Source of the DNA: Pisolithus tinctorius
Lineage: Eukaryota > Basidiomycota > Agaricomycetes > Boletales > Pisolithaceae
Length of the DNA stretch: 64,000 nt
NCBI GenBank assembly: GCA_024663395.1
Contig: JANFAH010000127.1
Coordinates: 1 to 64,000 of the forward strand
Direction of reading: 5' to 3'
Shown: piece after piece, positions 155 through 21,532 of the stretch
Layout: the number at the start of each line of letters is the position of its first letter
Numbering within the stretch: position 1 is the stretch's first letter
Notes under the pieces: generated by a model
What the model was told of the DNA's origin: nothing
The model's input: only the letters and a program-made list of their open reading frames with translations
Database searches by the model: none
Program-made: the position numbers and the translations under genes

Positions 155-159
<5 letters not shown>

Positions 160-187
<28 letters not shown>
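160..187. repeat. 28-base poly-G run
   Basis: An uninterrupted run of G follows a short T-rich stretch. It is far longer than any other G homopolymer in the window and could form G-quadruplex structure. Translations across it give meaningless polyproline or polyglycine, so it is not coding. An exact length of 28 may be unreliable because such runs are hard to sequence. Confidence 0.9.
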
Positions 188-188
<1 letters not shown>

Positions 189-900: not shown

Positions 901-1099
901 CAGTGGACATCCATGCACGCACACAGCACAGAGAAAGCAGTGTTTATTCAGAGGCCTGTGAGTGTATGAGCTGGGCCCACAACAGTAGGAATCCAAGCAC
1001 ACACACCACATGGGAGCAGATGAGAGTGTTGAGAAGATGACATGAGCTTGGCGACGTGTTCGTTTTTCAAATTGTATCATGAAAAAGGAAAGAGTTTCT

Positions 1100-1743
1100 G
1101 GCTGTGTCACCACACGAAAAGGAAATAACTTCTGTCATCAGTTGGCTCCCACGGGAAATATGGGTGCGGTAGGACCCCTGCAAGCAAGATAACAAGCTAG
1201 AACATAGCGTAGTGTTGTTGTCGAACCGTGTCTGTGTAGGTAAGTTGTTACCATCTGTCTGCTCGTCCTTATGTTACTTATGACTGTCATTGTGGGTTGT
1301 GTTTCTTTTGCGGCAAACACAGGTGGGGCCAACCCATGCCAGACTACGATGGTAACTTCTTCGGTGCACTTAGGCAGAACGCTCCTCCTTCGAGGTGGAA
1401 ACCTGTCAGGATTGTCAAAAGCACCCATCGGCCACCCTTCGTATGCACTGAATGACTTTCCTCTCCCTCACAGCACTGACGTACACCCTCTTAGTGGTCA
1501 CACTTCTCGGGAGGGTCTGGTGCACCATATTGGACACTCCCAACGTGTGGTATAAACCCTTGTGCAATTACAGTGGCCCAAGCAGCTGTCCTACATTGCG
1601 AATACCCATCACCTTCACCAGATTTACACGACCTCGCATCTCGAAGGATAGCATGCGCCATTATTTGGCTACATTCCAAAACTAAATAAAAGCGCTCTTC
1701 TGAGTTTCGGTTAATTCTGGTCTATCGATACGAAGGCCGCTGT
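1100..1743. other. No recognisable gene
   Basis: Short open frames exist on both strands, none with a recognisable domain or exon structure. The stretch ends where clear homology to the 51.4 kb locus starts, at about 1744. Confidence 0.4.
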
Positions 1744-3447: not shown

Positions 3448-4468
3448 CTCTCAGCCAATGGCCGCAAGTTATAATCCACACGCCAGGTATGATTAGTGGG
3501 AGGCACAGGGACTCTTTAAACCCCAGACACAGTCTGATGGGACCCCCAAACCCGAAGGACATTTTGCCATCCCGGCCCTCCTCCAAATGTGGCCGGGAGC
3601 TTGCATGTTGGTCACGTGCTCACTGTTGCCATCCAAGACTGTCTGGTGCACTGGTGAGCATCAGCAGTTTCTCCCAACATTTAAATCCACACTCACCTCC
3701 CGTGTTTGAAGGAACCGTATGTTGGGCAAGACGACTCTTTTTAACCCTGGATTCGATCATGCTGGTATCTCCACCCAGTCCATTGTTGAGCGGAGGCTAT
3801 ACAAGTTGGAGGGAAAGACACGACACGATCTGGGCAGGGAGACTTTTCTGGCGAAAGTTTTGGACTGGAAGGTCGATTTGTACGCGTGGCATTTTAATCC
3901 CACTGACCATGACACAAGTTATCAAGCTCGTATCATGAATCAGCTACACAGGCTCGGAGGAAGTTATGACTGGGACTGTGTCACATTTACCATGGGTCCA
4001 GTCAGTATCTGGGTTTTACAATGTAGACACTCTGCTGATGCGTCACAGTCACCCTCGAAAGTTGTCATCGAGACATTTTGTCGACTGCATGAAGGGGGCA
4101 TCCTTTATCGTGCTAATTGCCTTGTCAACTGGTGTGTCAAGCTGAATACTACACACCGTCCAATCTAGAGGTATAACCGAGACTCCCGAGGAAAGTGTAG
4201 TTTTGACTATCGGTGCAGGTAGAACAATCACAACTAGAGAGTAGAACCTCTTGAACATACCGGGGAATGATCTAAAGGAGAAATTCGAATTTGGCGTAAT
4301 TACTTCTTTTGCGTACCCCATACAAGACTAGGGTACGTGTTTTTAAGTGACCCTGCCCTCTAATTATTGGGATTACTTTGTGGACGAGAAGATCGTCATT
4401 GCTACTACACAACCAGAAACGATGTTGGGAGGTTCCGCAATTGCAGTGCATCCTGATGAACCTTGGTA
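3448..4468 (+). pseudogene. Valyl-tRNA synthetase pseudogene, left part
   Basis: Collinear with exons 3 to about 7 of the intact valyl-tRNA synthetase (54469-55500). Recognisable are the copied 'MLGKTTLF' and '[14 protein letters not shown]' blocks, and exon-intron boundaries are also copied, so it arose from DNA and not from mRNA. It lacks the first exons. The HIGH region is damaged, reading a mutated SL-H-V-G-H-V-L type sequence in place of SLHIGHAL. Homology stops at the TA at 4467-4468, where a Tc1/mariner element is inserted, and resumes at 23831. Confidence 0.88.
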
Positions 4469-4491
4469 CAGTAGACTTTCTCATAATGCAT
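4469..4491 (+). repeat. Left terminal inverted repeat of the mariner-like relic
   Basis: Starts CAGTAGACTTTCTCATAATG and is preceded by TA at 4467-4468. It pairs with 23808-23830 with two mismatches. Confidence 0.85.
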
Positions 4492-4654
4492 TTGCTACTG
4501 ATGCATAAATCTCATTTTGCATGACCTTTTGGGTGATTCCACTGTGGAATGCAGGGGTAACATCACATTTTTGCATAAATACTAATGCATGGGATCTGGA
4601 TTGATATTATGCAGTATGAGATGCTCTGTTTGCAGAGGGGAAGTCTACTGAATG

Positions 4655-4812
4655 GGGCTGAGCCACTAAACTGGCAGCCAAAAAAACTGAACTGGACTTA
4701 CAATCAAAATTCCAGCATCTCATCAATCACTGCAACTTACAGCTGCTGAGGAAGAACTGAAGGACTCTGTGAAAACATTACAAGAGCACAAGCACATTTT
4801 TGGCATACCACT
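4655..4812 (+). pseudogene. Mariner/pogo transposase remnant, left part
   Basis: A frame reads IPASHQSLQ, then EEELKDSVKTLQEHKHIFGI up to the Gypsy insertion. If G1 and one copy of its 5-base target duplication are removed, this frame continues directly into the right part at 23352 (GIPLTINEILTL, one in-frame TGA, then EENEIGKPMYQ). The IPASHQSL block resembles the second helix-turn-helix of CENP-B/pogo transposases, but that assignment is tentative. Confidence 0.5.
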
Positions 4813-5497
4813 TGTTATGCCCTCGTTACATGCTTTTCCTTTTTCGTCATTACCCCCTAAATCGCCAGGTCACGTGTGTCACGTGTCTTGTCGTGTCGCT
4901 TGTCCTCGCCATGGTCGTCCTCGGTCTGTTGGCACGAAGAGCCTTCAGATCACCGGCGGTGGTGGTATTTCCAATACCAACTGATGCTGCGGACATTGTC
5001 GTCGCTCTGACTCGCAGCTGCGCCCGCAGCTGATGGACGTATGTTTCATATGTGTTTACTTCTTGTTCCACATACCGTGTGTCTCGTTCGTATGTTAACG
5101 TCCCTTTTCTCGGTACTGAGGCCCCTCACTGCGGACTGCGTCCGCAGTCGGTATGGCTGTCCCCGCAGTACCTGACTCTTTTCTATTTCATTGTTTACTT
5201 GTTTACGACTAGCTGTGGATGTTGATACTGTGCAGACCCTGGAGGGTATATAGGTAGACGAACAGTATCCTGTATCCTCAGTTTTTCGATTTCTTGCAAT
5301 CTAGCTATCATCTTCAACTCGTCCTCGACTCGCCCTTAGTCGCAATCCCAGAAGAACTCGCCAATAGGACGAATCTTTAACCGGACTCGTTGATAACCAG
5401 TTAGACCATAGGGGTTACGATAAGTTCGGCCCGTAGAATCTCCTCCTGACTATCGTGCCTAGTCCATTTGATGAAGTCACTCGTCTTGAGCATAACA
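4813..5497 (+). repeat. 5' LTR of G1
   Basis: Starts TGTTATGCCC and ends CATAACA. A TATA box (TATATAG) lies at 5247-5253, so transcription probably starts near 5275-5285. Two near-perfect hairpins occur: CAGCTGCG/CGCAGCTG near 5015-5032 and CTGCGGAC/GTCCGCAG near 5131-5149. The 3' LTR has an ATG where this copy has GTG at 5455. Confidence 0.93.
5247..5253 (+). promoter_or_regulatory. TATA box in the G1 5' LTR
   Basis: GGGTATATAGG sits about 245 bp before the LTR end, a usual place for the Pol II promoter of an LTR element. The same sequence is kept in the 3' LTR near 23101. Confidence 0.65.
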
Positions 5498-7141
5498 AAA
5501 TCGAAAAACTCTACGCAGCTTTCAGGACTCATTCGACCTCTTTGTGCAAAGTCAAACTCGTCCCTCGGTTACTGAACTTCAACAAACCTACTATTTCTTT
5601 ATCCGGCTTAATGCTCTACAGGCAGCCCTACAGGGATTAATACATCGCCTCCCTAGAGTCCAGAATCCTTCTCCCCTTTTACTACACTGACAGGTTTCCT
5701 TTGGGATATAATTCCTCCCTCAGTCTTCATTGTCACTATCCGTTAAAGTGTCTTCCGACAAGAAGAGTAAGCCTCCAGTCCCTCCCTGATCTAACCCGCT
5801 TGGACTAGGAAGGAATCCACCTTTGCCTCCCATACCACACGGTCGGCTCGGACCGTCTTACTCTGCCACAAACCCACGTATATCGTTTCTTTCGCGGTAT
5901 CGCGAAGAAGAAGTCACTCTTAGTTCAGAAGAAGAAGACGATCAGAAGTCTAATACTTCTTTCGGATCAGTCCTCAAAGAAGAACAGGAAGAAGCGCAAA
6001 CACCCGTAATGTCAATGATGCAAGGTCACAGAGAGTCCGCTCTGGAAATGCCTCAAAGAGTATTCTCAGAAGAAGAGGTGCGTCAACAGCTCGAGGAGCA
6101 ACGCCACCGCTTGGCCGAAGAAGCGAGAAGATTGGTTGCCGAAGCCGGGGACCCTTTCCCCAATGGAGTACCTACTCAGAGGATGCTCCGTGATTGGTAC
6201 GCTCGGAATTTCAGAAAGGACGTACCCCCAGAGCCCTACCCAGATAGCGGCAGTAAGGGGAAATCTAAGTATGATGACGATGACGATTACCGCCCATGAC
6301 CCCCGAATGGAGGTTGAGAATTTAATGTTGGCAAACCAGGAGAATATGACGGAAGCCACAACAGTCTTCAGACGTGGCTCACACAAGTAGAAGGTTATCT
6401 CAACCTTAATCGACACGTTTACAGCACCGATTCCCTTAAAATCGCTTTCGCACTCACGTATATGACAAAGGGAGCTGCAGTTTCGTTCGCCGAAAATTAT
6501 CAAAATGAAAACCGCATCAATGACGGAAGTATCTACTACATGGATACTTTTCAGACTTTCATAGATCGACTCAAAGCTACCTTCGAGTCTGGCAATCAAA
6601 CCGCGTTAGCCATCCTTCGCTTGTCAAGTATTGAGCAAGGATCTTGCGAGCTTGAGGCCTACATCGCGGAGTTTACAGGTCTTGTCAACAAAGCCCAACT
6701 TAAGGAAGAATCTTGGGAAGCCGGAATCTTCTTTGGGAAAGGTCTGTCTAAGGAGTATCGTAATTGGATCCTTAACAGCGGACGAGCCCCTAACACCGTT
6801 ATGGAATGGATCAAGGTCGTGGGAGAAGCAAGAACCGTGATTGCCACTCGTAATATCTTAGAAGGGAAGGAATCTCGGCATGAAAGGAAGTACGTCCACT
6901 TCCAGCCTTCTAACCGAGATCCAGACGCCATGGATGTCGATAAACGAAAGAAGAACGTCTGGTGATCCACCACTGACGTCACATGTTACAACTGTAACAA
7001 GAAGGGTCACTACAAAAGTGAATGTAAAGCCAAACAGCTTTCCAACGTTCGTATTGTCGTCTCCGAAGACGGTACCAAGACCGCCTACGTCGGAGATAGG
7101 GAAGCTAACAATGATGAAAAGAAGTTGTTGGGTTTTTAAAG
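5455..7141 (+). pseudogene. G1 Gag (capsid and zinc knuckle), broken by stops
   Basis: The main frame runs from about 5600 to a TAA at 7139. It includes an acidic, coiled-coil-like N-terminal part (from the ATG at 5823, with runs such as EEEVRQQLEEQ), a retrotransposon capsid domain (around 6318-6950, with TWLTQVEGYL and FIDRLKATFE) and a CCHC knuckle CYNCNKKGHYKSEC at about 6984-7025. In-frame TGA codons at 6297, 6315 and 6963 interrupt it. The first two are best explained as CGA changed to TGA by CpG deamination. Upstream of 5823 the frame has further stops. An alternative frame starting inside the LTR at 5455 (GTG here, ATG in the 3' LTR) reads across the LTR end and could be the original N-terminus with a later frameshift. 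Gag would form the particle core. This copy cannot. Confidence 0.8.
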
Positions 7142-7177
7142 GGGACTGCTGAAAATTCTCCTGCAACAGTCAGTCCC

Positions 7178-10100
7178 GTGTCTATTTTGTCGGCTAAATG
7201 TACTTCTATAGATGACAAATCGAATATGCGTATCCGTTCGCCTCTCAGATTGGTTATTTTACCCGACTTCAAGGCAGGAATTTGGGCCTGTATCGACTCA
7301 GGCACAGAGGTATCGCTTATATCGGAAGCGATGGTACGAAAACTACAAATCCCGACTTACCGAGTAGAATGGAAGTTCAAGACAATGTCCTTCACCGGAA
7401 AAGACCAAGAATGGGTTACGCGGAAATGTACTATCAAAATGGAAATCAAGGAACGAATCGTCCGAGTCAAATGCTACGTTGGACCTCTCGTCGGGAAGGA
7501 ACATGTCCTTCTAGGGATGCCATTCTTGAAGGAGTACAAACCGCGTATGAATTGGGAAACCGGTAAGATCACATGTTGGGATGATGGTTTCGAATACCCC
7601 AAAAAAGAAAAACCCTCCGTGAAGGAGGTTGTTGTACCGGATGAGCTGGCAACTATTAACAAGACTACTCTGTCTACAGAGTTGGAAGCTGCTCTCGCGG
7701 CGTCGAAGGAGGAAGTCCGACTACCGGATCGATACAAGAAATTCGCCAAGGTCTTCGCAGAAGATGATATCCCGTTGCCGAAACATCGCCCTGGGTTGGA
7801 TCATGAAATACGACTAAAAGACAATTTCAAACCAAAGAAAGCAACGGTATACCCTATGTCCCCTGACGAACTGAAAGTTTTAGATGAATTTCTTGACAAA
7901 AATCTTAAGTGCAAGAAAATTCGACCTTCGACTTCGCCGCAGGCAGCCCCGGTGTTCTTCATCGCCAAGAAAGATGGAAAGAAACATCTTATTCAAGACT
8001 ACCAATACCTCAATTCGTTCACCATCCAAGACGCCCATCCTTTACCAAATGCCCAGGCCTTGTTCAACGAACTCATCGAATCAAGGTATTATGCCAAGTT
8101 CGACATTCGGTGGGGGTTTACAAACCTTCGCGTAAAGGAAGGAGACGAATGGAAAGGAGCTTTTATTACTCCTCGAGGATTGTTTGAACCAATGGTAATG
8201 TTCTTCGGGCAGTGCAACTCACCACCTTCTTTTCAGTGTTATATGGACAAAACCTTTGAAAAACAACGCGGAAAACAAGTAGGGTATATGGACGATGTTG
8301 TCGTTCATGCCAAAACCCTCGAAGAACTTCAGAAACGGGTCCAAGAGTTCCTCCAAATTTGTGAAAATGAAGAGCTACGCCTCAAAATCAGCAAATGCTG
8401 TTTCGAAGCCAAAGAAGTGGAGTTTCTGGGGATGATTATCGGAAAAGGACGAATGGAGACTTCCCCAACCAAGACTGACACCATATCAACATGGGAAGCA
8501 CCGGAGAATCTCACAGGGCTTCGTCGGTTCCTTGGGTTCTGCAACTTCTACCGGAAGTTCATCCCTTCTTTCTCAAGCATCGCACGTCCTCTCCATGACC
8601 TTACCAAGAAAGGGGTCTCGTATCAATGGACTCCTGAGAGAGCGGCAGCTTTTGAAAGGCTAAAATCTTTGTTATGCTCTTCTCCGGTCCTCACTATCCC
8701 CAATTTTACGAAGCCTTTCGCTCTCTTCACAGATGCCTCTAAGCTCGGTACCGGAGCTGTTTTGGCACAGAGGGGGTCCGATGGTGAATGGCATCCATGC
8801 TCGTACCTTTCACAGTCGTTGGTAGGGGCCGAACAACACTACCAGGTCTACGACCTGGAGATGCTGGCTGTCGTTCGTGCTCTCAAAGCTTTCTGGCCTT
8901 ACCTTCTCTCCCCTGTCGAACCTATGGTTGTGTTCACCGACCACAAAAACCTGGAGTATTACCGGGAACCGCAACAGTTGACCCCGCGGCAAGCGCGGTG
9001 GGCGGCCACTGTTCAGTCGTATCCGATCAAGTTCTCGTGGCAAGCCAGTCGTTTGCAGGTCCCTGCGGATACTCTTTCACGCAAAAACCTTTCAGAGGAG
9101 CCTGCCCCCGTGGCCACGGTTCTCCCAGCGAACCTTTGGCTTTCGGAGGGGGTGGATTCGCAAATTCGTCTTGTTTCTCCAACTTTTTCGTTGACAAAGT
9201 TACAAAAACAGCTAAAAATAAACCGTCTAGCACGAATAGGACGTCTCCCAGCCAAGGTGTCTCGGTCTAAACCCAAGCCTTACTCTCGCCTGTCTGAGGA
9301 ATTATCAAAGGAGAGTTCGGCCGCGAAAGCTCGCCCCACGAGGGAACCAGTAAAAGGAGCTAGAGGGGTCTACGCCATATCCGCGGACCTGTACGAGCGC
9401 GTCAAGAACGATACGCCAAAGGACTTGACAGGCCCAGAACCGAAAGATAACGTTACTATCGCTGATGACGGAACTAAACGGTTCGGAACTACTCGTCTAT
9501 ACATCCCGCCAGAGGATCGCCGACACTGTATGCGGTCCTATCACGATCACGAGTCCGCTGGACACCCCGGACAGAAGGCAATGCTCAGCAAGATGCGTAA
9601 GGAGGTGTGGTGGGAAGGTATGGGAAAGGACGTCAAGGCTTATGTCGCAGGATGCCCCCTGTGTCAAACCACTAAGGTGGTCACGCACCCTCCGACACCC
9701 CCGGTCGTACCTCACGATACCCCTAAATCTCTGTTCCCGTTCCAGCAGGTGTCTATGGATCTCATCACAGATCTCCCTGTTTCGGGAGAACAGAAATACG
9801 ACTCCATTCTCACGGTTGTTGATCAGGGTCTTACTAAGGCCGCCCTGTTTGTTCCGTGTCATAAAACAGTTGACTCAGTCGGGGTGGCCCGACTCTTCCA
9901 TCAGTTCATATATTCCCGATTTGGAGTTCCAGAATCGGTGATTTCGGATCGTGGCCCGCAGTTCACGTCGTCCTTTACGAAGGAGCTGTACAAAGCTATA
10001 GGGGTCAAAACGAAGCTAAGTACCGGATATCATCCACAGACTAACAGAGAAAGCGAGCGTGTAAACCAGGAAGTCGAGGGATATTTGTGCCTCTACTGCT

Positions 10101-10804
10101 CGGAGTTCCCCAACTCATGGGCCTCGAAACTTCCGTCCGCCGAGTTCGCTCACAACTCCTGGGTACACTCCATTCATCAAATGACCCCGTTCTCACTCAT
10201 CCTCGGATACGATCCCTCTCCTTACCCTGAAAAACGCCTTACTCCCGTACCGTCAGTAGACAAGCGACTCGAACGACTCGCCTCGTCGCGAGATGTTGCC
10301 ATCCTTGCACACAAGAAGGCACAGGAGGTGATGCGTTCGCGCAGTAAAGGGTCCTATGAACCGCCGAAAGTCGGAGACCAGGTACTTCTTGATGTCGGCC
10401 ATCTTAGGATCAAAAACCAGTGCGACAAGATTGCGCCCCGACGCCTCGGACCTTTCAAGGTGACTCAGGTGGTATCGCCTGTCGCCTTCCGGTTGGAGTT
10501 ACCCCCGACTTGGAAGGTACACCCCGTCTTCCACGCTTCTCGGATCTTTCCCTACGTCGAAAACAAGGTATATGGAGCTGCGCCCACAGCCCCTTTACCC
10601 GAACTAGTGGATGATGAGATAGAATGGGAGGTAGAGGCGATACTAAATCATAAAACAGATGGTCATAGAGGACAGCGTCACTATCTGGTCGAATGGAAGG
10701 GATTCCCGCATTCGTCCAACACTTGGGAGCCTGAGGAACATATAAAAGATCACGCAGCTGAATCCCTCGACCAGTACAAACTCGCTCGTCACCTCAGAAG
10801 TTAA
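7178..10804 (+). CDS. G1 Pol: protease, reverse transcriptase, RNase H, integrase, chromodomain
   Basis: An intact 1208-residue frame. Aspartic protease: D-S-G-T at residues 40-43. Reverse transcriptase around 200-400 with the catalytic Y-M-D-D at 370-373. RNase H around 460-600, with the FTDAS and FTDHK blocks. Integrase: an N-terminal HHCC zinc site (ending CPLCQ) and a D,D-35-E core at D861, D924 and E960. A C-terminal chromodomain lies around 1145-1195 (EWEVEAILNHK and YLVEWKGF), which in chromoviruses binds histone marks and guides insertion into heterochromatin. The frame differs from Gag's last frame, and Gag's final TAA at 7139 precedes this ATG by 36 bases. Fusion or frameshift expression is therefore possible but not shown. 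The stop TAA overlaps the next ATG as TAATG. Confidence 0.95.
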   Translation: MSILSAKCTSIDDKSNMRIRSPLRLVILPDFKAGIWACIDSGTEVSLISEAMVRKLQIPTYRVEWKFKTMSFTGKDQEWVTRKCTIKMEIKERIVRVKCYVGPLVGKEHVLLGMPFLKEYKPRMNWETGKITCWDDGFEYPKKEKPSVKEVVVPDELATINKTTLSTELEAALAASKEEVRLPDRYKKFAKVFAEDDIPLPKHRPGLDHEIRLKDNFKPKKATVYPMSPDELKVLDEFLDKNLKCKKIRPSTSPQAAPVFFIAKKDGKKHLIQDYQYLNSFTIQDAHPLPNAQALFNELIESRYYAKFDIRWGFTNLRVKEGDEWKGAFITPRGLFEPMVMFFGQCNSPPSFQCYMDKTFEKQRGKQVGYMDDVVVHAKTLEELQKRVQEFLQICENEELRLKISKCCFEAKEVEFLGMIIGKGRMETSPTKTDTISTWEAPENLTGLRRFLGFCNFYRKFIPSFSSIARPLHDLTKKGVSYQWTPERAAAFERLKSLLCSSPVLTIPNFTKPFALFTDASKLGTGAVLAQRGSDGEWHPCSYLSQSLVGAEQHYQVYDLEMLAVVRALKAFWPYLLSPVEPMVVFTDHKNLEYYREPQQLTPRQARWAATVQSYPIKFSWQASRLQVPADTLSRKNLSEEPAPVATVLPANLWLSEGVDSQIRLVSPTFSLTKLQKQLKINRLARIGRLPAKVSRSKPKPYSRLSEELSKESSAAKARPTREPVKGARGVYAISADLYERVKNDTPKDLTGPEPKDNVTIADDGTKRFGTTRLYIPPEDRRHCMRSYHDHESAGHPGQKAMLSKMRKEVWWEGMGKDVKAYVAGCPLCQTTKVVTHPPTPPVVPHDTPKSLFPFQQVSMDLITDLPVSGEQKYDSILTVVDQGLTKAALFVPCHKTVDSVGVARLFHQFIYSRFGVPESVISDRGPQFTSSFTKELYKAIGVKTKLSTGYHPQTNRESERVNQEVEGYLCLYCSEFPNSWASKLPSAEFAHNSWVHSIHQMTPFSLILGYDPSPYPEKRLTPVPSVDKRLERLASSRDVAILAHKKAQEVMRSRSKGSYEPPKVGDQVLLDVGHLRIKNQCDKIAPRRLGPFKVTQVVSPVAFRLELPPTWKVHPVFHASRIFPYVENKVYGAAPTAPLPELVDDEIEWEVEAILNHKTDGHRGQRHYLVEWKGFPHSSNTWEPEEHIKDHAAESLDQYKLARHLRS

Positions 10805-11031
10805 TGGACTCTCCTCGCTCTGTAAACACTGAAAACGACTATGCCAAGCTCCTTGGAGAATCCGTTTACGACCCCGCAGGTGACAGGGACGACCTTCTCG
10901 CCCCCCCCATCGCCTGCTATCACGGCTCCCCTCCCCCGCGTGCTGCCACCTGTGTTTCTGAGTCGGACACCTCGTCCCTCGTCTCACAGTGGGAGGTACC
11001 GACCCTTGTCTCCCGGCCTCTCCGACCGCGT
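10804..11031 (+). CDS. G1 third ORF (ORF3), 5' part, interrupted by G2
   Basis: Starts at the ATG overlapping the pol stop (TAATG) and encodes 76 residues before G2 enters at 11032. It continues in frame at 21537 once G2 and one GCGT copy are removed. The start overlap suggests termination-reinitiation on one mRNA, but that is inference. This part is rich in Asp, Ser and Pro with no known domain. As it stands the reading frame runs into the G2 LTR and stops at 11091. Confidence 0.75.
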
Positions 11032-12038
11032 TGTGGGACACTACCTCTGGGTAGCGTGCGAATAGGGGAAAGCTGTAGGGAAAATCCCTAGGCTCGACCC
11101 AAGGGGTGCTGAGTAGGAAGGAGACGTAGGATGCGATGGTAGAGTCGGTCGAAGAGTCGAATGTGGGTCACGGAATTTAATTCCGTAGAGTCGAAGGAAG
11201 GGACAGACTTGCTTTTGAAATTCCGGATGACGATCTTGCACCAAGGAAGTAACTCCGAGACGAATTAAGCGTGCGGGAGAGGCAAATGAGTACTAATGGA
11301 TCAAGGACGCGAAGACACGGTAGACACAGTAGACGCAAAGACACAGATACGCAGCGGACTCAGAGGACGCGAAGACTCTGTGAACTCTTTAGACTCGCAC
11401 TAGACGCAGAATGTGGGTCCCAAAAGAGATTATTTCCGTTTCGTTGCTGAGGCGGAATTATATAGTACATGGATAGTAAGGTACTGATCGGAGAAATGTG
11501 GGGCGGGAGAAGCAAAACTCCGAAAAATAAAGGGGACGACGTGTCAGACGTCAAAGCCATACAGCAACGTGTGAAAACAAACTGTAAGGTAGTAACTGAG
11601 AAATACAACAGGAAAGACGGGTATCTTCCGACAGGGCGAGTGTACACTGTACCGTAGAGTGGAACGCGAAGGGTAGAGGCCGTAGGTAGAAAGGGGTTCT
11701 CGCTTTGTGGAGAAAGGTTCGCGGGAAAGGAACGAGAGGGGTAACCGGAGTTTTTACCGATGATCTGCGTGATTTTCCGACTACGTGGCGAGGCGAGGGT
11801 TGAAGCGGCACGACTGCGGAATTCCGGATAGACGTATGTCAGGTTGATGTTGACGCGGAATTTCGGGACGATGACTGGTGTGTGTTATTGATGGACCGGG
11901 GAGCTCCAAAGGTTCGACAGGCGAGGCAGCGCACGAGGCAGAAGGGATAATTCCGAAGACGATAGACGTGGATGGTAACGGCGGAATTTTGGTGTTGGCA
12001 TCCCTATTTTGGCCTCAGGGAGTATACTACTCCCTACA
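11032..12038 (-). repeat. 3' LTR of G2 (left copy)
   Basis: 1007 bp. It holds about nine CGGAATT/AATTCCG motifs, among them the palindromes CGGAATTTAATTCCG near 11171 and CGGAATTCCG near 11818. It also lies immediately upstream of the plus-strand accessory gene at 12308, so it may supply that gene's promoter. Confidence 0.93.
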
Positions 12039-12307
12039 CCTCCCGGGGCCTTCGAATGCTGACCGTCCTCGGTCAGAGGTCATCGAGTCGCGACAGAAGG
12101 GCGGCGGAGATTCGGAAGGTGACGTAAACGAAGAAGGCTCGTGTTTGGCCACACGACTTGTGTGAGCAAAAAAAACTCCGCACCCGGATAACATGTCAGC
12201 AGCAGCCCTTCGGAATTAAAAACTTGCCCAGGAACGTCTCATCGTCAGATTCACCCTTGATATTCCACCACCTCGTCCTCAGACTCTCACAACTCTCGCC
12301 AACGACC

Positions 12308-13903
12308 ATGCAAGCCTACTCCGTCAACGACGCGCGTCCCGTGTTCAGCATGAGGGACCAGGCGACCACGGCGCTCGCTGCAGCTCTAGGGCATGTCTGG
12401 AACTTGATCGAGGCGGCGCCACAGCCAGAGGAGAGGCTGGAGACCATCTATGCGTGGGTGGAGGACTGGGATAAGACATGGGTGAGCAACCTTCCACTGT
12501 AGTGCGTCGCACGTTGACAGAGATCCGCAGGCCAGCATACGCTCGTGGTGGAAATACATCGACGACAACGGAATTTCCGTGCCGAAGGTTCGCGATGAGT
12601 GCATGCGCGACTATACCGAGGAATCTGCGATGTGCCAAAGCCTTCTAGTCCCGGGTGCCATCGCCATCGCTGACCTCCGTCGTCCAGTGGAGCAGAGACG
12701 GATCCACATCGATGACATCTTCGAAGACTACCAGGAGAGGGTAGAGTTGAGAGCGCAGCTCGAGGCGGAGAGGTTGACAAGAGAACCTTCTATGCGCACG
12801 CGTAGACAGTCAGCAACGGCAACAGGTGAAGGTCAAGGCTGCGCGCCCAGCGACACTGAAGCAGGGGAGTCGTCGGGGGGGGGCTGGACGACCAGTGAGG
12901 CGACAGACGGATAGTACAGGCAAGGGGAAGGGCAAGGAAAAGGTACGTCCTACCCTCCAGGAAACTCCGAGTGCGATGGCTAATGTTCAGAAAAACTCTG
13001 CAGGCCACAGACGAAGTCGATGAATTGGAGAACGACGAAGACGAACACCCACCGAACCCTGACCCATCGAAAACTGGTGCTCCGGCAGCCGAAGCCGACC
13101 TTCGATGCAGGGAGTGCGCGAAGGTAAACGCAGTGTGCGAAGGGCTACCTGGGGAGTCATGCGAGCGATGCAGGCAGGCCAAGCGGAAATGTAGCCGATC
13201 GCTCAGAGTGGGTAGGAAGGTGAGTACGAGCTGATCGCGACGTGACGAACGAGGACACTGAACCGTAACACAGCGCAAGAACGCTGGAAGTGGAGAGACG
13301 GCCGCTGGCCCGTCACATAAACGGGTCAAATCAGTAACGGTGACGAATGAAACTCCGGTGTTGACCGGGTTGAAGCTTCGAATCCCTGCTCGCAAACCAC
13401 CTCCCAGGCAAAACTCCGAACCACTTCCCGAGCATCCAACACCTCGAGCAAGTCCCTCGTTGTCTTCTGACATGCCTCCACCTCCCGTACCTCGACCACC
13501 TCTGTTCCTTCCATCAGCAACCCCTGTACCACGACCTCATCCGGAGCTGACTCCACCACCGATGGACAATCCAGGAGACCTTGGCGACGGTGGACTTTTT
13601 GGCAGACCGACGGGTTTATTGGACGATCCACCCGCACCCATCGTCAGCACGCAGGACGAGTCTGAAGGTCCTCCAGTCGAAGAAACTCCGCAGGTCGCAA
13701 ACCCGAGTGAATCGGCTACGCGCGAGACTCTTGCTGAGCGCGTCCGACTGCTGGAGGGTAGGGCAGACGACGAGGAGTTTGAGTTGACCCAGATCCACCA
13801 GATGCTGGGGCTGTTGGCAACGCGAGTGGAGCGACAGATCGGCGCAGTTCAGGGGCGACGCGAGGAGCTGAAGAGGTTGAAGGATCAGCTCAAAGATATG
13901 TAG
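12308..13903 (+). CDS. Antisense multi-exon gene of G2: Zn2Cys6-like/AT-hook/coiled-coil protein
   Basis: Exons by splice consensus and frame: 12308-12481, 12531-12772 (end uncertain), about 12810-12942, 13004-13219 and 13274-13903, about 464 residues. Donors include GTGAGC at 12482, GTACGT at 12943 and GTGAGT at 13220. The 37-nt gap at 12773-12809 is short for an intron and may instead mark a frameshift. Residues about 218-246 (13106-13192) contain six Cys spaced CX2CX6CX7CX2CX6C, the Zn(II)2Cys6 pattern, with the basic loop CERCRQAKRKC in the second half and not the first. A GRP-centred AT-hook-like basic patch precedes it, then a Pro-rich linker and a C-terminal heptad-like helix (LAERVRLLEGR to LKDQLKDM). 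It runs against pol, inside the element. Predicted role, by inference: sequence-specific DNA binding in the nucleus. Confidence 0.7.
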
Positions 13904-14187
13904 GTACGAGTACAGTAGCGTAAGTAGATTGCGGAATTTATTTGTTTTATTTTATTTCGTGGATCTTTCGGCATTTTGAACAGGATCATCGCTAAGAAGG
14001 GAACAGGGAAAGAGAACGAATCGACGAGAGGCTGGAGATGAGCGGAATTTTTTTTTTTTTTTTTTTGTTTTTTGTGGCGGTTTTTGGTTTCATATGAGAC
14101 GAAGAGCGTAACTATATAAGCGAAAGGAAAGGCGAAGAAAGAGAGAAAAGAAAAGAAAAGAAAGAAAAAGATAGAGAGAAAGGTGTG
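13904..14187. other. Convergent intergenic tract in G2 with T run, TATA-like site and purine tract
   Basis: Between the two convergent stop codons lie two CGGAATT motifs (13935, 14043), a run of about 19 T interrupted by G, a plus-strand TATATAAG at about 14113, and about 65 bases of nearly pure purine ending at 14183. The TATA-like site faces into pol from its 3' end and could start further antisense RNA, but nothing proves this. Confidence 0.5.
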
Positions 14188-17100
14188 CTACTCATCTGAT
14201 TCGTCCAAAGGGACGCCAGCGAGTGCAGGGTCTGGTAGTGAATCATCTTCTAAGCGGTCCAAGTCGCCTGCAGAAATTCCAGTCAACTGCGTGACTTCGA
14301 TACGAGAGTTGTCCCGCGGGAAATAGGGGTAAAGACGGAAGGTGGCAAACCGGAATTTGGACACGGCTCCATCTAATTCCGCCAGGATGTACGAGCCTCC
14401 TTTGGTATGCCGAACGACTATCATGGGACCTAGGTAGCGTGGTTTGGTCTTGCGATCTAGTTCCCGCTCGATACGTGAATTCCGCACGAGGACGAGTGAC
14501 CCAGGTTCGAAGTTGAAGTCTTGGATGGTGTGCGCAAAACGAGCGACGAAGTCTTTGACCGACGCGAAGTGGGATCTCAGGACGAGATCGTGGATTCGAG
14601 CAAGGTCTTCTGGACGTTTCTGGAGTTGGCGGGCGCGATGGGCGATGAGTTCTGACGTCGAGTAAAATTCCGCCTCAAAAGGGGCCAAGAATGTCGCCTC
14701 GACAATGTCAAAGGGGAGTCTAGGTTCGACGCCGTGAGCCATATAAAATGGAGAAAACCCAGTTGCCTTGTGAACCGTAACCCTCTCTGCCCAGAACACC
14801 GCAGGAGCCACTTCCGACCACTTTGATGCTTCTCCTCCGCAACTCTTTACCAACGCCTCCCTCACATCGAAATGCCGACGCTCAACAACCCCGTTAGCTT
14901 GGGAGTTATAGGGTGAGATTCGGATGTGGCGAATCCCGAAGGTTTTGGAGAGCCAATCGAGAGTGAGGACGTAGGGACCACCGTTGTCTGTGACAATTTC
15001 CGCAACTGCACCCCAGCGGCACAAGATCTGTTCGAAAATGAATTTTCCGATGGACTTGCCGGTCTCCGCGCGAAGCATAGCCCACTCTGGATAACTAGTA
15101 AGTGAACAGCGAGCTTGGGTGACGTAGCGAAATCCGTTCGACTTCGGCATCAAGAACGTGTCCATATACGCTTTAAAGAATAGGGGCTCGGGGATGGCGA
15201 CGACTGGCGGAATATGTACGCGATCCAAACGGCGTATTTGGCATTCGTGACACGACTTGACATACCAGCGGACGTCCTGCTCTAGCATAGGCCACCAGAA
15301 ACGAGTCAGCAGCTGCATGTGGGTCGAGTAGATACCCTTGTGTCCTAGCTCATCATGAGCCTGACGAAGAATCCCGAGTCGTTTGTGAGGGGCGACTACT
15401 AGTTGGTGACGTCCGTGAGGGTCCTTTCTCCACAGGTCTCCTCCTTTGACGAAATACCGAGTGGCGAGACGCACCAGGCTTTCCAACTCCCCTTCCTCCA
15501 ATCCTTCTGGCTTCTTCTTCGTCTCCAAAAACTCCTTCACCACTTTTAACCTCTCCTCTCTCTGGATCGCTTTCTCTGAGCGCGGAATTTCCGTTTCGTA
15601 GACACTCGGTGAGGTTTGTTCGGAGGAATAGATGCCTAGACTCTGTGACAAGACCGAAGGTGAGTCTGACAAGGTACTCGGAATTTCCGAAGGGTAAGGC
15701 TGAGACTCGAAACGGGCCTCCCTATGGTTCAAAAGCTCGACAGCGAAGGCTCCACACTCGTCTATCCACTCCTCGTAGTCCTCTTCTCCATCCTCATCTT
15801 CTTCTGCTTTCGGTCTCCTTGAAAGACCGTCTGGCGCTGCATGCTTGTGAGCAGGGACATGTACGAGCTCGAAGTCGAATAAAAGAATTCCCGCAATCCA
15901 GCGGTTGATGGTTGCGTTGGGCTGTAAGTCTGGATTGTTAATCATCCCCTTTATATATCGTGCGTCAACCTCGACAACTAAATTCCGCACGCCAAAAATG
16001 TGAAGTCTGACGTCGTGTAAAGCGCGGAAGAGACCAAAGAGCTCGAGTTTGGCTTGGCTGTAACGGCGCTCGCGGTCGTTGAGAGTTATCGAGCCGAACC
16101 TTGCAGGGTAACGTTTTCCATCTTCCCCCTCCTGCATGAGGAGGTATCCTACAGCGATATTCGAAGTGTCGACTGCCAGAATGACCTTCCTCTCGGAATT
16201 GTAGTCGATAGTGCGAAGCGCAGGGGAGGAGACGATAGCTTGGCGAAGATAATCCATGGCTTCCCTGTGTTCGTCGCGGAATTCGAAGGAGACATCTTTC
16301 TTGGTCAGCTCGACGAGGGGACGTGCGTGCTTAGCGAAATCCTTGATAAAGATCCTACAATACGAGCAAAGACCTAAAAATCCGCGCACTTCGGTGACAT
16401 TAGCGCAGTAGGGCCAGTCTTTAATTTTCTGGACTTTAGCTTCGTCCGGAATTCTCCCCTCGAACGACACCTTATGCCCAACCACAATGATAGACGGCGC
16501 GGCGATGACGCATTTCTTTGCTGAAACGGTAGCTCCTGCATGACGCAGACGATGCAAGACGCGGTTGACGTTCTGCAGATGTTCCCAGATGAAGTGCCGG
16601 ATCCCGGAGTTTTGTGCGATTGTCTGGAAGGTACCGTCGGAGTTTTGGTAACGAGATTTGGGGCCTTTGATCGGGCAATCGTTGATGAATGGGATGGTAA
16701 CTTCCGGAATTTCATCCTTTAATATCCAACAGACGTCTCCGTGGAAAATTTGGACGGCATTTGTGTAGCCCATGGGTAGTTTGGTGAGTCGAAGGGTACC
16801 AATAGGGGTTTGGAAGGTAGTTAGATCGCGGTATTTGTCATGGATGGTGCGATGATCGTATCCGACCATAAGATCTAAAATTCCGTAGACGGAGTGGCAG
16901 GCGAAAGCTTCTGCAATCGAGTCGACGAAAGGGGGAACGGCTGAATCCTGTATAGATACGGCATTCAGAGGTTGTAAGTCATGAACAAGGCGCAGAGATT
17001 TTCCATCCTTCTTGACTACGCAGAACCATTTCGAGCGATAGGACGAAGTAGAAGGTTCGTAGACACCTGCGGAAATCTTTTCTTTGATTATGCCGACGAC

Positions 17101-17796
17101 GTCACGAAAAATGGCAGGAGGTATGGGGATATTCCGCTCGACCCAGGGTTTGTGGGCTAGCGTGGGTATCTTCAGCGGCGGAAACATATCTTCTCGGAAG
17201 GTTCCTCTTTCTGAGGCATCCCAAGCGAAGGCGGTCTCGTGTGTCTTGACCAGCCATCGTACCAGATTTAACTCCGTGGGCCAAAGGAACTTCGAAGGGT
17301 CCAGATCAAGCTCGTCAGCCCTTTCCTGGGTGAACCTGGAGCCTGGCACAAATGGAGGAGGATGAGTAGGTAATACAGGTAAGTCTGCGAGAGGATCTCC
17401 AGCCTCCCGACGCTCTACCCGGAATTCCACAGGCATCGACGTCGGTACAGGCCTGACCTTCTTCGCTACAGGTTTGTATTTTAAGATATGAAGGACGGAA
17501 TCGAACTGGTAAGTAGAACGTAAGGCTGAAATTGTCAGTGGTGAAACAGTAGTGCTAGTAGAAAATAAGAAAGGGTCATTCGAAGAAACGGAACTAGAAT
17601 CGAACGGGTCAATTGGGGGCGTACTGTTGCTTTGGAAATCATAGAGCAATGCCGCAGCGGGATTTTGGGTAGTATCTGTAGAGAAAAGAGAAGCCGGCTT
17701 TGAGGGTAACAAGGAAGAATCAGAAACGTAGAGCGAACACACGGAGAAAACATTATCATGGCCTCCTCGCGATCTAAACGAGTCATCGACCGGCAC
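14188..17796 (-). CDS. G2 Pol: reverse transcriptase, RNase H, integrase
   Basis: 1202-residue open frame that begins just after a TGA; the first codon used here is GTG. RT lies at about 210-430: the blocks WFCVVKKDGKSLRLVHDLQ and LPMGYTNA are normal, but the catalytic box reads F-I-N-D (Asn at residue 372) where x-D-D is required. RNase H follows (VILAVDTSNIAVGYLL), then the HHCC zinc region (ELGHKGIYSTH, CHECQIRR) and integrase catalytic core (AYMDTFLMP, VTDNGGPYV, NGVVERRHFD). No chromodomain is seen at the C-terminus. The RT substitution is GAC to AAC, a CpG transition read on the other strand, so RT activity is probably lost. Coding potential is otherwise complete. Confidence 0.93.
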   Translation of the reverse strand: MPVDDSFRSRGGHDNVFSVCSLYVSDSSLLPSKPASLFSTDTTQNPAAALLYDFQSNSTPPIDPFDSSSVSSNDPFLFSTSTTVSPLTISALRSTYQFDSVLHILKYKPVAKKVRPVPTSMPVEFRVERREAGDPLADLPVLPTHPPPFVPGSRFTQERADELDLDPSKFLWPTELNLVRWLVKTHETAFAWDASERGTFREDMFPPLKIPTLAHKPWVERNIPIPPAIFRDVVGIIKEKISAGVYEPSTSSYRSKWFCVVKKDGKSLRLVHDLQPLNAVSIQDSAVPPFVDSIAEAFACHSVYGILDLMVGYDHRTIHDKYRDLTTFQTPIGTLRLTKLPMGYTNAVQIFHGDVCWILKDEIPEVTIPFINDCPIKGPKSRYQNSDGTFQTIAQNSGIRHFIWEHLQNVNRVLHRLRHAGATVSAKKCVIAAPSIIVVGHKVSFEGRIPDEAKVQKIKDWPYCANVTEVRGFLGLCSYCRIFIKDFAKHARPLVELTKKDVSFEFRDEHREAMDYLRQAIVSSPALRTIDYNSERKVILAVDTSNIAVGYLLMQEGEDGKRYPARFGSITLNDRERRYSQAKLELFGLFRALHDVRLHIFGVRNLVVEVDARYIKGMINNPDLQPNATINRWIAGILLFDFELVHVPAHKHAAPDGLSRRPKAEEDEDGEEDYEEWIDECGAFAVELLNHREARFESQPYPSEIPSTLSDSPSVLSQSLGIYSSEQTSPSVYETEIPRSEKAIQREERLKVVKEFLETKKKPEGLEEGELESLVRLATRYFVKGGDLWRKDPHGRHQLVVAPHKRLGILRQAHDELGHKGIYSTHMQLLTRFWWPMLEQDVRWYVKSCHECQIRRLDRVHIPPVVAIPEPLFFKAYMDTFLMPKSNGFRYVTQARCSLTSYPEWAMLRAETGKSIGKFIFEQILCRWGAVAEIVTDNGGPYVLTLDWLSKTFGIRHIRISPYNSQANGVVERRHFDVREALVKSCGGEASKWSEVAPAVFWAERVTVHKATGFSPFYMAHGVEPRLPFDIVEATFLAPFEAEFYSTSELIAHRARQLQKRPEDLARIHDLVLRSHFASVKDFVARFAHTIQDFNFEPGSLVLVRNSRIERELDRKTKPRYLGPMIVVRHTKGGSYILAELDGAVSKFRFATFRLYPYFPRDNSRIEVTQLTGISAGDLDRLEDDSLPDPALAGVPLDESDE

Positions 17797-17872
17797 TAAA
17801 AACCCTGCTCAGGTTGCTTCATGTGGCGACGCATCTCCTTGCGTGCAAAGTAGTCTTCTTCGTCTTCGGAAT

Positions 17873-20005
17873 TTACGAACCGTGGAAGAGGCTGTAGTCT
17901 GTTCCAGGGCGCGTCGGAATTAATACCTGTCTTCCCGTGTTAGGATCACGAATCTCTAGGGACTGTTCCCCGTCGGGGAAATCTCGTAGGACGCTGGTGA
18001 GCAGACAGAAGAAGGGTCGCCCGAGAAGTAGATCAAATGGAGCGTGATCAACAACCTGAATCTGGAGGTGCGCTTCGATATTCCCTATGCGCAAGGACGC
18101 GTTCTCTATGACACCTAGAGTACTTTCTTTGGATTGGTTAGCGGCTTCGAGAGTCATGCTCATGTCAGAATGAAGAGGAGCCCCTAAGGCCTCCCATAGT
18201 TCACGACGCAAGGCTACCACCTGACAACCACTGTCCAGAATGCATTCGACGTGGAGTTTGTTCATTAAGATGCCATCGACAGCGCGTAAGGGGGCAGTAG
18301 CGAGGCCTACACACTTCCCTTCGACGTCTCTGACCCAGAATTGTTCATAGGACGCCCAGGTAGGTGACGCCACAGCTTCTGACGCCGTTTCCAGGCTCCC
18401 AATCGTTATCTTTTTCGTCGCAGCCAGTTCTCGGACCTGCTTACGAATCTCCGGGCTGACAGCAAGGAGGTCTTTGGTAGAGATCTCCATCTTCGCTTCT
18501 AAGACTTGGTTTACGAGACGTCTGGTAGCAGCCACTTCATCGAAACTGCTCTGGTATCGAAATTGGGGTGCGGGAATTGTTGTAGGCTTAGATTTCTTGG
18601 AATCTGTAGGATTAGAGATGGCCGGAGTTTTACTAACGGTTGGGTTCTCTGTAACATGGACAGGATCGTTTGGAACGGAATTAACGACTGGCCTGGGGGC
18701 GGATGATGCATTAGCAGGCGCTGGACTTGTCGCGGGGTTTCGCTGACGGCGGATCGGAATTTCTACACCGTCGAAACGAGCAACCTTCTTCTTCTTGATA
18801 TTATTTTTCAATTCTTCTACTTGCGCGTAAGCTCTCACCAAGGCGCGCTGGTCTTCTTCATCGGCATTACTCTCTAGTTCTTCGTCGATTAGGTAGGAGG
18901 AGGGATGTAGGTCGACCTGAAACTCCGCGGATTCTTCATTAGTGAAGAACATCGTGCTGACGAGATGAGGTGGGGTATCACGTCCTCGAGATGAGTTCGA
19001 TGACTGGCTAGGACGTTGTACGGAGACGAGGTTTGCTGAGGCAATGATAGAATCGCGCATGGCAAGGAAGTTGTCGATCTTTTCTTTAAAGTTCCGGCCA
19101 GCAGCCGTCCTAGGAATGTCAGAACCATCAGGCATAAATACTCTTCCCCCTATCAGGGTGCATTTCCCAGCTTGTACGTATTCACGACACAGTGCGCACT
19201 CTGCCGTACGGTGACCATCGGTGCTCCCGCAGAAGAAACACTGTGGGTCAAAAGAGCGACGGAATTGGGCCTCTTGACCTTGTTGAGGGGGTGACGTGTC
19301 GGTAGGTTGTTGGGCGACTTGGACGTACTCGCGTTTTAAGATAGTGGGGACAGTCGACGAAGAAGGGGGTGCGGAGTTCTGGGGAAACAAGGCCGAAGAA
19401 TCAGGTTGAGGGAGATTTCGTTTTGCTCCGCTGAGTAGGTAGTTAGCGTGCTTGTAGACCAGATCGAACTCCCAAGGTTCGTCGATGTCGTGATCTAGGT
19501 CTGAAAGTTGCAATCGCGTGAGCAAGGAATTCCAGAACCTCGGGGGAAATCCCTCAAGGAATTTCTCGTTGATGTAGTCCTCAGGGAGCTTCTTCTTCTT
19601 CTGGACGAGGCCAAGGATGCGCCGGAATTCCCGGACGTATTTACCAAGATCTTCCAGCGATCCCATAGGTTTCTGAACTTGATGGTAGAGTAAGGTTTCG
19701 AGGTCGGCCTTGGTATAGCAACGATCTTTCACTGAAGCACCTGGATAGTAGTTCAGGAGTTCTTTGGAAAACGCGTCCCAGTCATTGAAGCCGTCGGTTG
19801 CAGCGTCTAAGGTGGACCAAAATTCCGCCTCGTTGTGATCGGCGTAACGGATGACCCAGTGGATTTTATCTTTTCCGGTGTCCAGGCCAGCTTCGACGCA
19901 GAGTTGTTCGACGTCTTCGAGGTAGCGAGTGATGTCTTCAGTGCGACCGGAAAACTTCGGGGCTTTGTTAGAGCCCCTGAGCGGCATGTCTCTGGCTCCA
20001 GACAT
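17873..20005 (-). CDS. G2 Gag-protease
   Basis: 710 residues from the ATG at 20005. An N-terminal capsid-like region (PKFSGRTEDITRYLEDVEQL, LLNYYPG) is followed by a zinc-knuckle variant C-X2-C-X5-H-X4-C (CFFCGSTDGHRTAEC), a Pro/Ser/Thr-rich linker, and a retropepsin-like domain with the catalytic D-S-G (CILDSGCQVV) and the flap-side block FDLLLGRPFF. Protease is thus fused to Gag and separate from RT. After its TAA the third frame reads VNSEDEEDYFARKEMRRHMK and leads to Pol, so Gag and Pol were probably once one continuous frame. Upstream of the ATG the same frame stays open to the LTR. Confidence 0.9.
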   Translation of the reverse strand: MSGARDMPLRGSNKAPKFSGRTEDITRYLEDVEQLCVEAGLDTGKDKIHWVIRYADHNEAEFWSTLDAATDGFNDWDAFSKELLNYYPGASVKDRCYTKADLETLLYHQVQKPMGSLEDLGKYVREFRRILGLVQKKKKLPEDYINEKFLEGFPPRFWNSLLTRLQLSDLDHDIDEPWEFDLVYKHANYLLSGAKRNLPQPDSSALFPQNSAPPSSSTVPTILKREYVQVAQQPTDTSPPQQGQEAQFRRSFDPQCFFCGSTDGHRTAECALCREYVQAGKCTLIGGRVFMPDGSDIPRTAAGRNFKEKIDNFLAMRDSIIASANLVSVQRPSQSSNSSRGRDTPPHLVSTMFFTNEESAEFQVDLHPSSYLIDEELESNADEEDQRALVRAYAQVEELKNNIKKKKVARFDGVEIPIRRQRNPATSPAPANASSAPRPVVNSVPNDPVHVTENPTVSKTPAISNPTDSKKSKPTTIPAPQFRYQSSFDEVAATRRLVNQVLEAKMEISTKDLLAVSPEIRKQVRELAATKKITIGSLETASEAVASPTWASYEQFWVRDVEGKCVGLATAPLRAVDGILMNKLHVECILDSGCQVVALRRELWEALGAPLHSDMSMTLEAANQSKESTLGVIENASLRIGNIEAHLQIQVVDHAPFDLLLGRPFFCLLTSVLRDFPDGEQSLEIRDPNTGRQVLIPTRPGTDYSLFHGS

Positions 20006-20525
20006 TTTTCGAGGTGGAATGGGGATCTGGATCGGAATTCGGGGAAGGATAGGAGCAGAATTCGAGAGAGTCGAGGCAAGAGTATTCTGTACGGGTATTT
20101 GAGTAGAAAGGGTGGTGGCAGAATTTGCGATTAGGGAGTGGGAAGGAAGGAGGAGCTGTTCAGTGGCTAGTTCTGAATCACTGGATGGCGAGGACGAAGA
20201 AGAAGTTAGTTCTGAGAGAGGCGAAAGTTCTTGACGTTCAGCGGGAGGATCAAAGGGCTCGTCGAAGTCGAAGCCTCCTGGAAACGCTGGGTAAAACGCT
20301 GGGGACTCTGGGCTCCGAAAGATCTCGTCTAAACCGAGGTCTGAGTCTGACGAGTGCGGCTCTGAAATATCTCTAGGATCAGCTACCGGAATTAAGATTT
20401 CTGCTGAGGAAATAGATAGTCTGTGGAAGGGCTCTAAGAGCTCTTCGAGTTCGGTTCTTTGACGAGTGGGTCGTAAGGATCTCCTTTCCAGATCTACAGA
20501 CCCCTCGCGGTGGGCTCCAAAACGA
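20006..20525 (-). other. G2 gag leader, open in the Gag frame
   Basis: Reading the Gag frame backwards from 20005 finds no stop through the whole leader and primer-binding site and on into the LTR, to a TGA near 20660. The translation is acidic and Ser/Pro-rich (for example EPFDPPAERQELSPLSEL). No ATG occurs in that stretch, so either Gag starts at 20005 or a spliced or non-AUG start extends it. Confidence 0.55.
20500..20519 (-). other. Primer-binding site of G2
   Basis: On the minus strand, six bases after the LTR end, the sequence TGGAGCCCACCGCGAGGGG begins with TGG, the complement of a tRNA CCA end. The matching tRNA could not be named from memory with confidence. Confidence 0.5.
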
Positions 20526-21532
20526 TGTGGGACACTACCTCTGGGTAGCGTGCGAATAGGGGAAAGCTGTAGGGAAAATCCCTAGGCTCGACCCAAGGGG
20601 TGCTGAGTAGGAAGGAGACGTAGGATGCGATGGTAGAGTCGGTCGAAGAGTCGAATGTGGGTCACGGAATTTAATTCCGTAGAGTCGAAGGAAGGGACAG
20701 ACTTGCTTTTGAAATTCCGGACGACGATCTTGCACCAAGGAAGTAACTCCGAGATGAATTAAGCGCGCGGGAGAGGCAAACGAGTACTAATGGATCAAGG
20801 ACGCGAAGACACGGTAGACACAGTAGACGCAAAGACACAGATACGCAGCGGACTCAGAGGACGTGAAGACTCTGTGAACTCTTTAGACTCGCACTAGACG
20901 CAGAATGTGGGTCCCAAAAGAGATTATTTCCGTTTCGTTGCTGAGGCGGAATTATATAGTACATGGATAGTAAGGTACTGATCGGAGAAATGTGGGGCGG
21001 GAGAAGCAAAACTCCGAAAAATAAAGGGGACGACGTGTCAGACGTCAAAGCCATACAGCAACGTGTGAAAACAAACTGTAAGGTAGTAACTGAGAAATAC
21101 AACAGGAAAGACGGGTATCTTCCGACAGGGCGAGTGTACACTGTACCGTAGAGTGGAACGTGAAGGGTAGAGGCCGTAGGTAGAAAGGGGTTCTCGCTTT
21201 GCGGAGAAAGGTTCGCGGGAAAGGAATGAGAGGGGTAACCGGAGTTTTTACCGATGATCTGCGTGATTTTCCGACTACGTGGCGAGGCGAGGGTTGAAGC
21301 GGCACGACTGCGGAATTCCGGATAGACATATGTCAGGTTGATGTTGACGCGGAATTTCGGGACGATGACTGGTGTGTGTTATTGATGGACCGGGGAGCTC
21401 CGAAGGTTCGACAGGCGAGGCAGCGCACGAGGCAGAAGGGATAATTCCGAAGACGATAGACGTGGATGGTAACGGCGGAATTTTGGTGTTGGCATCCCTA
21501 TTTTGGCCTCAGGGAGTATACTACTCCCTACA
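20526..21532 (-). repeat. 5' LTR of G2 (right copy)
   Basis: 1007 bp, about 99 percent identical to the left copy. Differences (for example near 20720, 20755, 20864, 21161 and 21328) are C/T or G/A within CpG. It should drive gag-pol on the minus strand. Confidence 0.93.

Follow-up and report, generated by a model that had tools for sequence, protein, structure and literature searches.

Among the literature found, sequence-specific anti-silencing by an element-encoded factor is in print for the VANDAL DNA transposons of plants, Mutator-like elements (MULEs) of Arabidopsis, in which binding by VANC proteins has been demonstrated; VANC6 also acts on the unrelated element AT9TSD1, which shares the motif and loses methylation (accessible parts of PMC5735166; a sequel study on VANC is PMC10398659). 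A related arrangement was identified in G2, a Ty3/Gypsy long terminal repeat (LTR) retrotransposon at 11032-21532 of the window, i.e. the whole analysed stretch of 64,000 nucleotides from contig JANFAH010000127.1 of Pisolithus tinctorius. This fungus is an ectomycorrhizal relative of the boletes, and its element G2 combines a short motif, CGGARTT, spread over the entire element with an antisense gene for a Zn2Cys6-like protein. CGGARTT is a selected duplex-DNA tag common to two retrotransposon superfamilies, Ty3/Gypsy and Ty1/Copia, and we assign a probability of about 0.5 to the reading that the Ty3 antisense protein would bind this tag and open or activate tagged copies in trans, with Copia exploiting the tag.

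The likeness to VANC and VANDAL lies in an element-encoded protein, a short motif accumulated in the family, and the presence of that motif in an unrelated element (PMC5735166, accessible part). VANDALs are DNA transposons, whereas the G2 lineage consists of LTR retrotransposons, and the G2 protein is a putative, Zn2Cys6-like binder. In the plant Retand Ty3/Gypsy elements, antisense open reading frames (ORFs) between pol and the 3′ LTR are predicted to be DNA-binding and carry the TRP28 domain, reported from flowering plants only; the accessible part of PMC11963269, which mentions HBZ of human T-cell leukaemia virus type 1 (HTLV-1) alongside these ORFs, describes tandem repeats and no element-wide motif. 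The G2 gene has the identical position and orientation, but it is spliced, encodes a zinc cluster and is fungal, and the G2 motif is element-wide. HBZ is antisense and spliced like the G2 gene, has a leucine zipper and regulates the provirus, but it is a basic leucine zipper (bZIP) cofactor and is not known to have element-wide cognate sites. No Ty3 element of this kind was described in the titles and abstract openings that searches of the open PMC literature listed, most subscription papers lying outside it.

G2 was assigned to Ty3/Gypsy, with its sense on the minus strand, by the LTR pair, a bordering 4-bp target duplication (GCGT), the protease, and the order of reverse transcriptase (RT), RNase H and integrase. 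In the Pfam scan of pol the RNase H and integrase zinc-binding domains exceeded the cut-off, and RVT_1 and rve_3 were below it. The antisense ORF is placed between pol and the 3′ LTR:

11032..12038, minus strand: 3′ LTR, one of a direct repeat pair
12308..13903, plus strand: antisense gene, exons 12308-12481, 12531-12942, 13004-13219 and 13274-13903
13088..13200 (approximate), plus strand: zinc cluster CX2CX6CX7CX2CX6C, then a conserved basic arm
14188..17796, minus strand: pol ORF, 1202 amino acids (aa), RT, RNase H and integrase in Ty3-type order (ORF and Pfam scan)
17873..20005, minus strand: gag-protease ORF, 710 aa, DUF4100 and aspartyl protease (ORF and Pfam scan)
20526..21532, minus strand: 5′ LTR, direct repeat partner of the 3′ LTR

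CGGAATT or its complement AATTCCG occurred 44 times in 11032-21532, with nine copies in each LTR and 26 in the interior, and was the most frequent 7-mer of G2; six copies were found in 23352-64000 and one at lower coordinates than the element, and the recount reproduced the approximate numbers of an earlier note made from the same sequence. In one LTR plus the interior (9494 bp), CGGAATT was present 35 times and CGGAGTT 14 times, each with an expectation of ca. 1.6-1.8, and the remaining single-base variants occurred 0-7 times each, for which reason the motif is written CGGARTT; the A/G position was overlooked in the earlier note. Sixty second-order Markov simulations averaged 2.9 CGGARTT and never exceeded 7, compared with the 49 sites observed, and in these runs any 7-mer of at least three letters stayed at or below 12. 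Codon-preserving shuffles (300 each) averaged 2.19 CGGAATT for pol (maximum 6), which has 13, and 1.50 for gag (maximum 5), which has six, so that CGGAATT is the outlier under codon-aware shuffling that the earlier note had expected; CGGAGTT alone fell inside the shuffled range, with three in pol (maximum 4) and three in gag (maximum 3).

As had also been claimed, the sites lie in coding and non-coding DNA and in various codon phases. The coding DNA holds 16 CGGARTT sites in pol and nine in gag, and in one LTR plus the interior the strand split was 30/19 with every codon phase used, which indicates a DNA-level signal and not a constraint on protein or RNA. The density was 11.8 per kb in the LTR (12 sites in the stretch 11029-12042) and ca. 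4 per kb in other parts, or about one site per 194 bp overall. Window positions 1-11028 contained three CGGARTT, i.e. background density. The whole genome, of 92.5 Mb, contained 9983 CGGAATT, or 1.08 per 10 kb, and 5364 copies of the reversed control.

The motif was conserved in a sister Ty3 family, family B, represented by L042 and L043, which are 94.5% alike and hence not independent, and by a third copy, L041. Family B differs from G2 (family A) with 82% DNA identity in pol, about 59% in the LTR, and 46-55% identity of the antisense protein depending on the method, and CGGAATT is its commonest 7-mer as well. Among the ten aligned pol sites, nine in L043 were identical to G2 against 21.7% of 327 other CG-containing 7-mers (p 9e-6), and eight in L042 against 17.3% of 329 (p 3e-5); in the LTR, 4/11 and 3/10 sites were identical against 4.4% and 3.5% of controls (p 1e-3 and 4e-3). 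Homologous sites swap between AATTCCG and AACTCCG from one family to the other, and family B gains sites at places non-homologous to those of G2. By these alignments, CGGARTT is held by selection between diverged Ty3 families. Family B carries the identical motif and so offers no diverged one by which coevolution of motif and protein might be judged.

Single sites of particular position in G2 are as follows:

11171..11185: 15-bp palindrome CGGAATTTAATTCCG (CGG-N9-CCG), with its 5′ LTR counterpart at 20665-20679
11453..11459: CGGAATT over a likely sense TATA box (TATATAATTCCG on the minus strand; the TATA assignment is inferred)
11817..11826: overlapping palindrome CGGAATTCCG (CGG-N4-CCG), absent from L043
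12174..12217: two motif sites between the LTR and the antisense gene start

The earlier note had described CGG-N4/5/9-CCG palindromes, and the N4 (11817) and N9 (11171) forms were found. The site over the likely TATA box is retained in L042 and L043 and altered in many family A copies. Site 12211 is identical in both sister copies, and site 12174 reads AATTCCG in L043 and AATTCTG in L042.

The motif and the palindrome were also found outside Ty3. Among the first 100 listed plus-strand CGGAATT sites of the genome, all on contig C1 (to 2.34 Mb), four clusters (at least three sites, 3-kb steps) were located at a B element, a G2-type LTR, a Copia LTR adjoining the gag-only element of L045, and L046, and these hot spots led to the Copia family. 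L046:3526-8597 (C1 ca. 2339-2344 kb) is a Ty1/Copia element nested inside a G2-like Ty3 element, with LTRs 97% alike and copia gag-protease-integrase and RT frames recognised by reading; it contains 21 CGGARTT in 4781 bp (5 plus, 16 minus). Its coding frames hold five sites against a codon-shuffled mean of 1.26 (maximum 4) and 12 against 2.51 (maximum 6), the 12 lying partly within a 21-bp coding tandem repeat. A second copy, L048 (97% identical DNA), has 26 CGGARTT in 5 kb, and at least 66 genome matches to the Copia RT were among those listed. The comparison within Copia lacked the power to show conservation: the old copy L047 shares 8/11 motif cores, where 56.5% of controls are shared (p 0.22), and L048 shares 16/17 (p 0.58). 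The genome has 128 copies of the 15-bp palindrome CGGAATTNAATTCCG and none of the reversed control, and all 11 places retrieved were in LTRs of the G2-like, B or Copia families; 39 of the 50 listed places were assigned by eye from nearby earlier matches, C2:5827725 sitting 7.8 kb off. The flanks of the palindrome look unrelated between Ty3 and Copia, which we read as convergence and not descent.

Pieces of eight gene-less retroelements of the same genome (four Ty3 and four Copia, picked for long open frames; 8 of 19 first chosen) served as controls, the Ty3 ones being distant, with pol ca. 23-32% identical. They contained seven CGGARTT in 19,208 bases (3.6 per 10 kb, background). G2 pol, with 16 sites in 3609 bases, reaches 44 per 10 kb (Fisher 1e-8 relative to these controls), and the Copia frames, with 17 in 3819, reach 44.5 (Fisher 6e-9). 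CpG-decayed forms reached 8.9 per 10 kb in the controls (17 in 19,208), 7.4 in window 23352-64000, and 40 in L041 and L047 together; with these forms near the window level, the possibility that the controls hide decayed sites was rejected. A Copia family without a detected antisense gene bears the same motif and palindrome at the same density as Ty3, and the gene is not required in cis. The earlier note had taken equal density in related elements lacking the gene as evidence against its proposal; this applies to Copia and not to the eight controls, and it tells only by half, because Copia is unrelated to G2 and the controls are at background. A tag under selection in two superfamilies points to a signal for a diffusible factor.

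The antisense gene is real and under purifying selection, with dN/dS 0.20-0.40 in 10/10 copy pairs compared and GT-AG introns throughout in 20/20 family A copies. These introns survive retrotransposition because the sense genomic RNA cannot splice them out, which fits a gene expressed from its own transcript. The sister gene in L042 has four exons, with GT-AG introns at three places matching the G2 gene, and encodes the public P. tinctorius protein P0021 (467/467 aa). The six-cysteine spacing at 12308-13903 reported in the earlier note held, but the gene has four exons, with the zinc cluster encoded by exon 3 and a coiled coil (by reading) by exon 4. In exon 2 of the window copy the reading frame is shifted by one base, as it is in L002, a copy 99% identical to it. 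This broken copy, which the earlier note overlooked, would not make the zinc cluster, since the frameshift precedes it. Of 20 family A copies, L004 alone is open to the end and 19 stop earlier, some with altered length; 13/20 copies have the six cysteines in frame, one of the 13 with a stop inside the pattern, which is also borne by P0021.

Zn2Cys6 proteins are defined by CX2CX6CX5-12CX2CX6-8C, which the antisense protein fits, and their classic targets are CGG triplets and CGG-N-CCG palindromes. With the Gal4 class the antisense gene and the motif of G2 have in common the cysteine spacing, the putative coiled coil and the CGG half-sites and palindromes; unlike that class the protein has its basic residues in the second loop, a marginal Pfam score, and a retrotransposon as its source. 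In the second zinc loop and the basic arm, 18/25 residues are the same in the two families, compared with 55% identity for the whole protein, and the C-terminus is heptad-like. On the basis of these features together with the CGG core and the CGG-N9-CCG palindrome, we infer that the product is a Zn2Cys6-type dimer that may read CGGARTT. Pfam scans of the zinc peptide, the exon 4 ORF and 23 homologues gave no convincing domain besides Zn_clus and no match to TRP28 (PF04195), a separate comparison with VANC not having been run. Against PDB, the best fold match of P0021 had E 1.0 and the sequence search none at E<=1. Two whole-protein searches listed at least 82 different proteins, each from P. 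tinctorius or P. orientalis, and among the matches listed at the thresholds used in these, which scored limited candidate sets, and in one region-only search, none was from outside Pisolithus.

Some further loci were noted. L045:3209-7463 is Ty3-like, with a gag 31% identical to that of G2, no pol match found, and six CGGARTT in ca. 4.3 kb, a weak intermediate excess. L045:45-734 (minus) contains a zinc-cluster-like cysteine ORF with a lysine-glycine stretch resembling the antisense protein, which possibly hints at a wider family associated with transposable elements. To the left of G2, window 7178-10804 is another Ty3 element, with a C-terminus chromodomain-like by eye only. L005/L006 and others form pairs of identical score, one member on a small contig and one on a large contig (C143/C16, C163/C73); such pairs resemble duplicates of one locus from two haplotypes, and the copy counts may therefore be too high.

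The element copies show CpG decay. All ten differences between the LTR interiors of G2 are CpG transitions, and across 19 other copies 113 of the 174 changes at 17 CGGAATT sites of 11029-15400 were CpG transitions (99/131 without L013 and L019). In family B, L041 retains five CGGAATT beside 19 TGGAATT/CAGAATT, and the old Copia copy L047 has no intact site and 18 decayed forms. The excess of CpG transitions suggests methylation of silent copies. The mechanism considered is that an antisense transcript would leave the 3′ LTR and yield the antisense protein, whose dimer would bind tagged copies in trans along their whole length and, in opposition to CpG methylation, keep their chromatin open for transcription, in the manner of VANC; Copia would have acquired the tag in evolution to use the Ty3 factor. 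Anti-silencing or activation in trans is favoured over promoter control or repression because of the whole-body tagging, the CpG decay and the presence in a foreign element. The fuller version, in which the protein marks and opens every tagged copy and Copia filled its LTR and coding DNA with the tag and so steals the service, is held tentatively, at somewhat less than an even chance. Of the motif-binding regulator proposed in the earlier note, the selected DNA-level motif and the selected gene are upheld, and the need for the gene in cis is not.

Several observations weigh against opening in trans by the antisense protein. Motif CpGs vary between copies to about the same extent as other CpGs (0.185 vs 0.198), which means that old copies are unprotected. 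Of the sites in the antisense-gene block the two B copies retain 2/9 and 1/9, which is not significant (p 0.06 and 0.26), and conservation within family A alone had the same direction without significance (P 0.11). L044, a chimera with a B-type antisense gene beside a diverged gag (28% identical) and little pol, has only five CGGAATT in 6 kb despite that gene, which argues against a strict tie of gene to density; conversely, tblastn of both antisense proteins against L046 gave no convincing homologue. One peptide gave a marginal Zn_clus match (22.4 bits; cut-off 21), and only 1/23 homologues matched at E<0.1; the canonical first loop has its likeness in the second loop of the cluster instead of the first, and the AlphaFold model of P0021 (23 alignment rows) was poor and uninformative (mean pLDDT 50). 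Finally, the VANC motifs lie in non-coding DNA, often as tandem repeats (PMC5735166, accessible part), whereas those of G2 are also in coding DNA.

The main rival is a host Zn2Cys6-type regulator that reads CGGARTT, the site having been adopted by Ty3 and Copia for transcription and the antisense protein being otherwise employed. It would explain the sharing without a hijack in trans, and the tagging of Copia although no antisense gene was found in L046; a promoter site, however, need not fill coding DNA, and gag and pol are saturated in both superfamilies. Moreover, the pieces of the eight other retroelements are at background, Ty3 itself encodes a CGG-class protein, and the four clusters among the first 100 listed sites all fall at the B, G2-type and Copia loci named above, so that a host factor appears rather unlikely. 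It is improbable that the antisense protein binds the motif and represses, be it by silencing, by limiting copy number or by opposing sense transcription, as HBZ of HTLV-1 does. The orientation of the gene opposite to gag-pol and the crowding of sites in the LTR, where one covers the likely TATA box, would suit a repressor, but the gain of sites by an unrelated Copia suggests that the tag benefits its bearer, and the element-wide spread goes beyond promoter control.

Whole-element spread would also suit the coating of a genome, i.e. a motif acting on RNA or reverse-transcribed cDNA in a packaging or integration complex and not on chromatin, and the strand split in L046 (5/16, partly one tandem repeat) is less even than in G2. 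Duplex DNA is nevertheless favoured by the two-strand sites of G2 (30/19) and the palindromes, by which an RNA-level signal is disfavoured, and Gag and integrase differ between Ty3 and Copia; action on RNA or cDNA is thus very unlikely. An artefact of composition, codon use or repeats, to which the 21-bp tandem repeat holding part of the Copia sites might point, is scarcely credible given the codon-preserving and Markov controls, the cross-family conservation and the genome-wide counts; for G2, composition and codon use were rejected on the first two.

Little is settled about the ways in which retrotransposons evade silencing. A fungal Ty3 lineage with a tag and a likely reader gives a testable system and shows that a tag acting in DNA can mould the coding sequence that carries it. 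With a second tagged superfamily, trans-acting cooperation and cheating among retroelements become testable as well. If the fuller version given above is true, one parasite would be mimicking the self-recognition signal of another.

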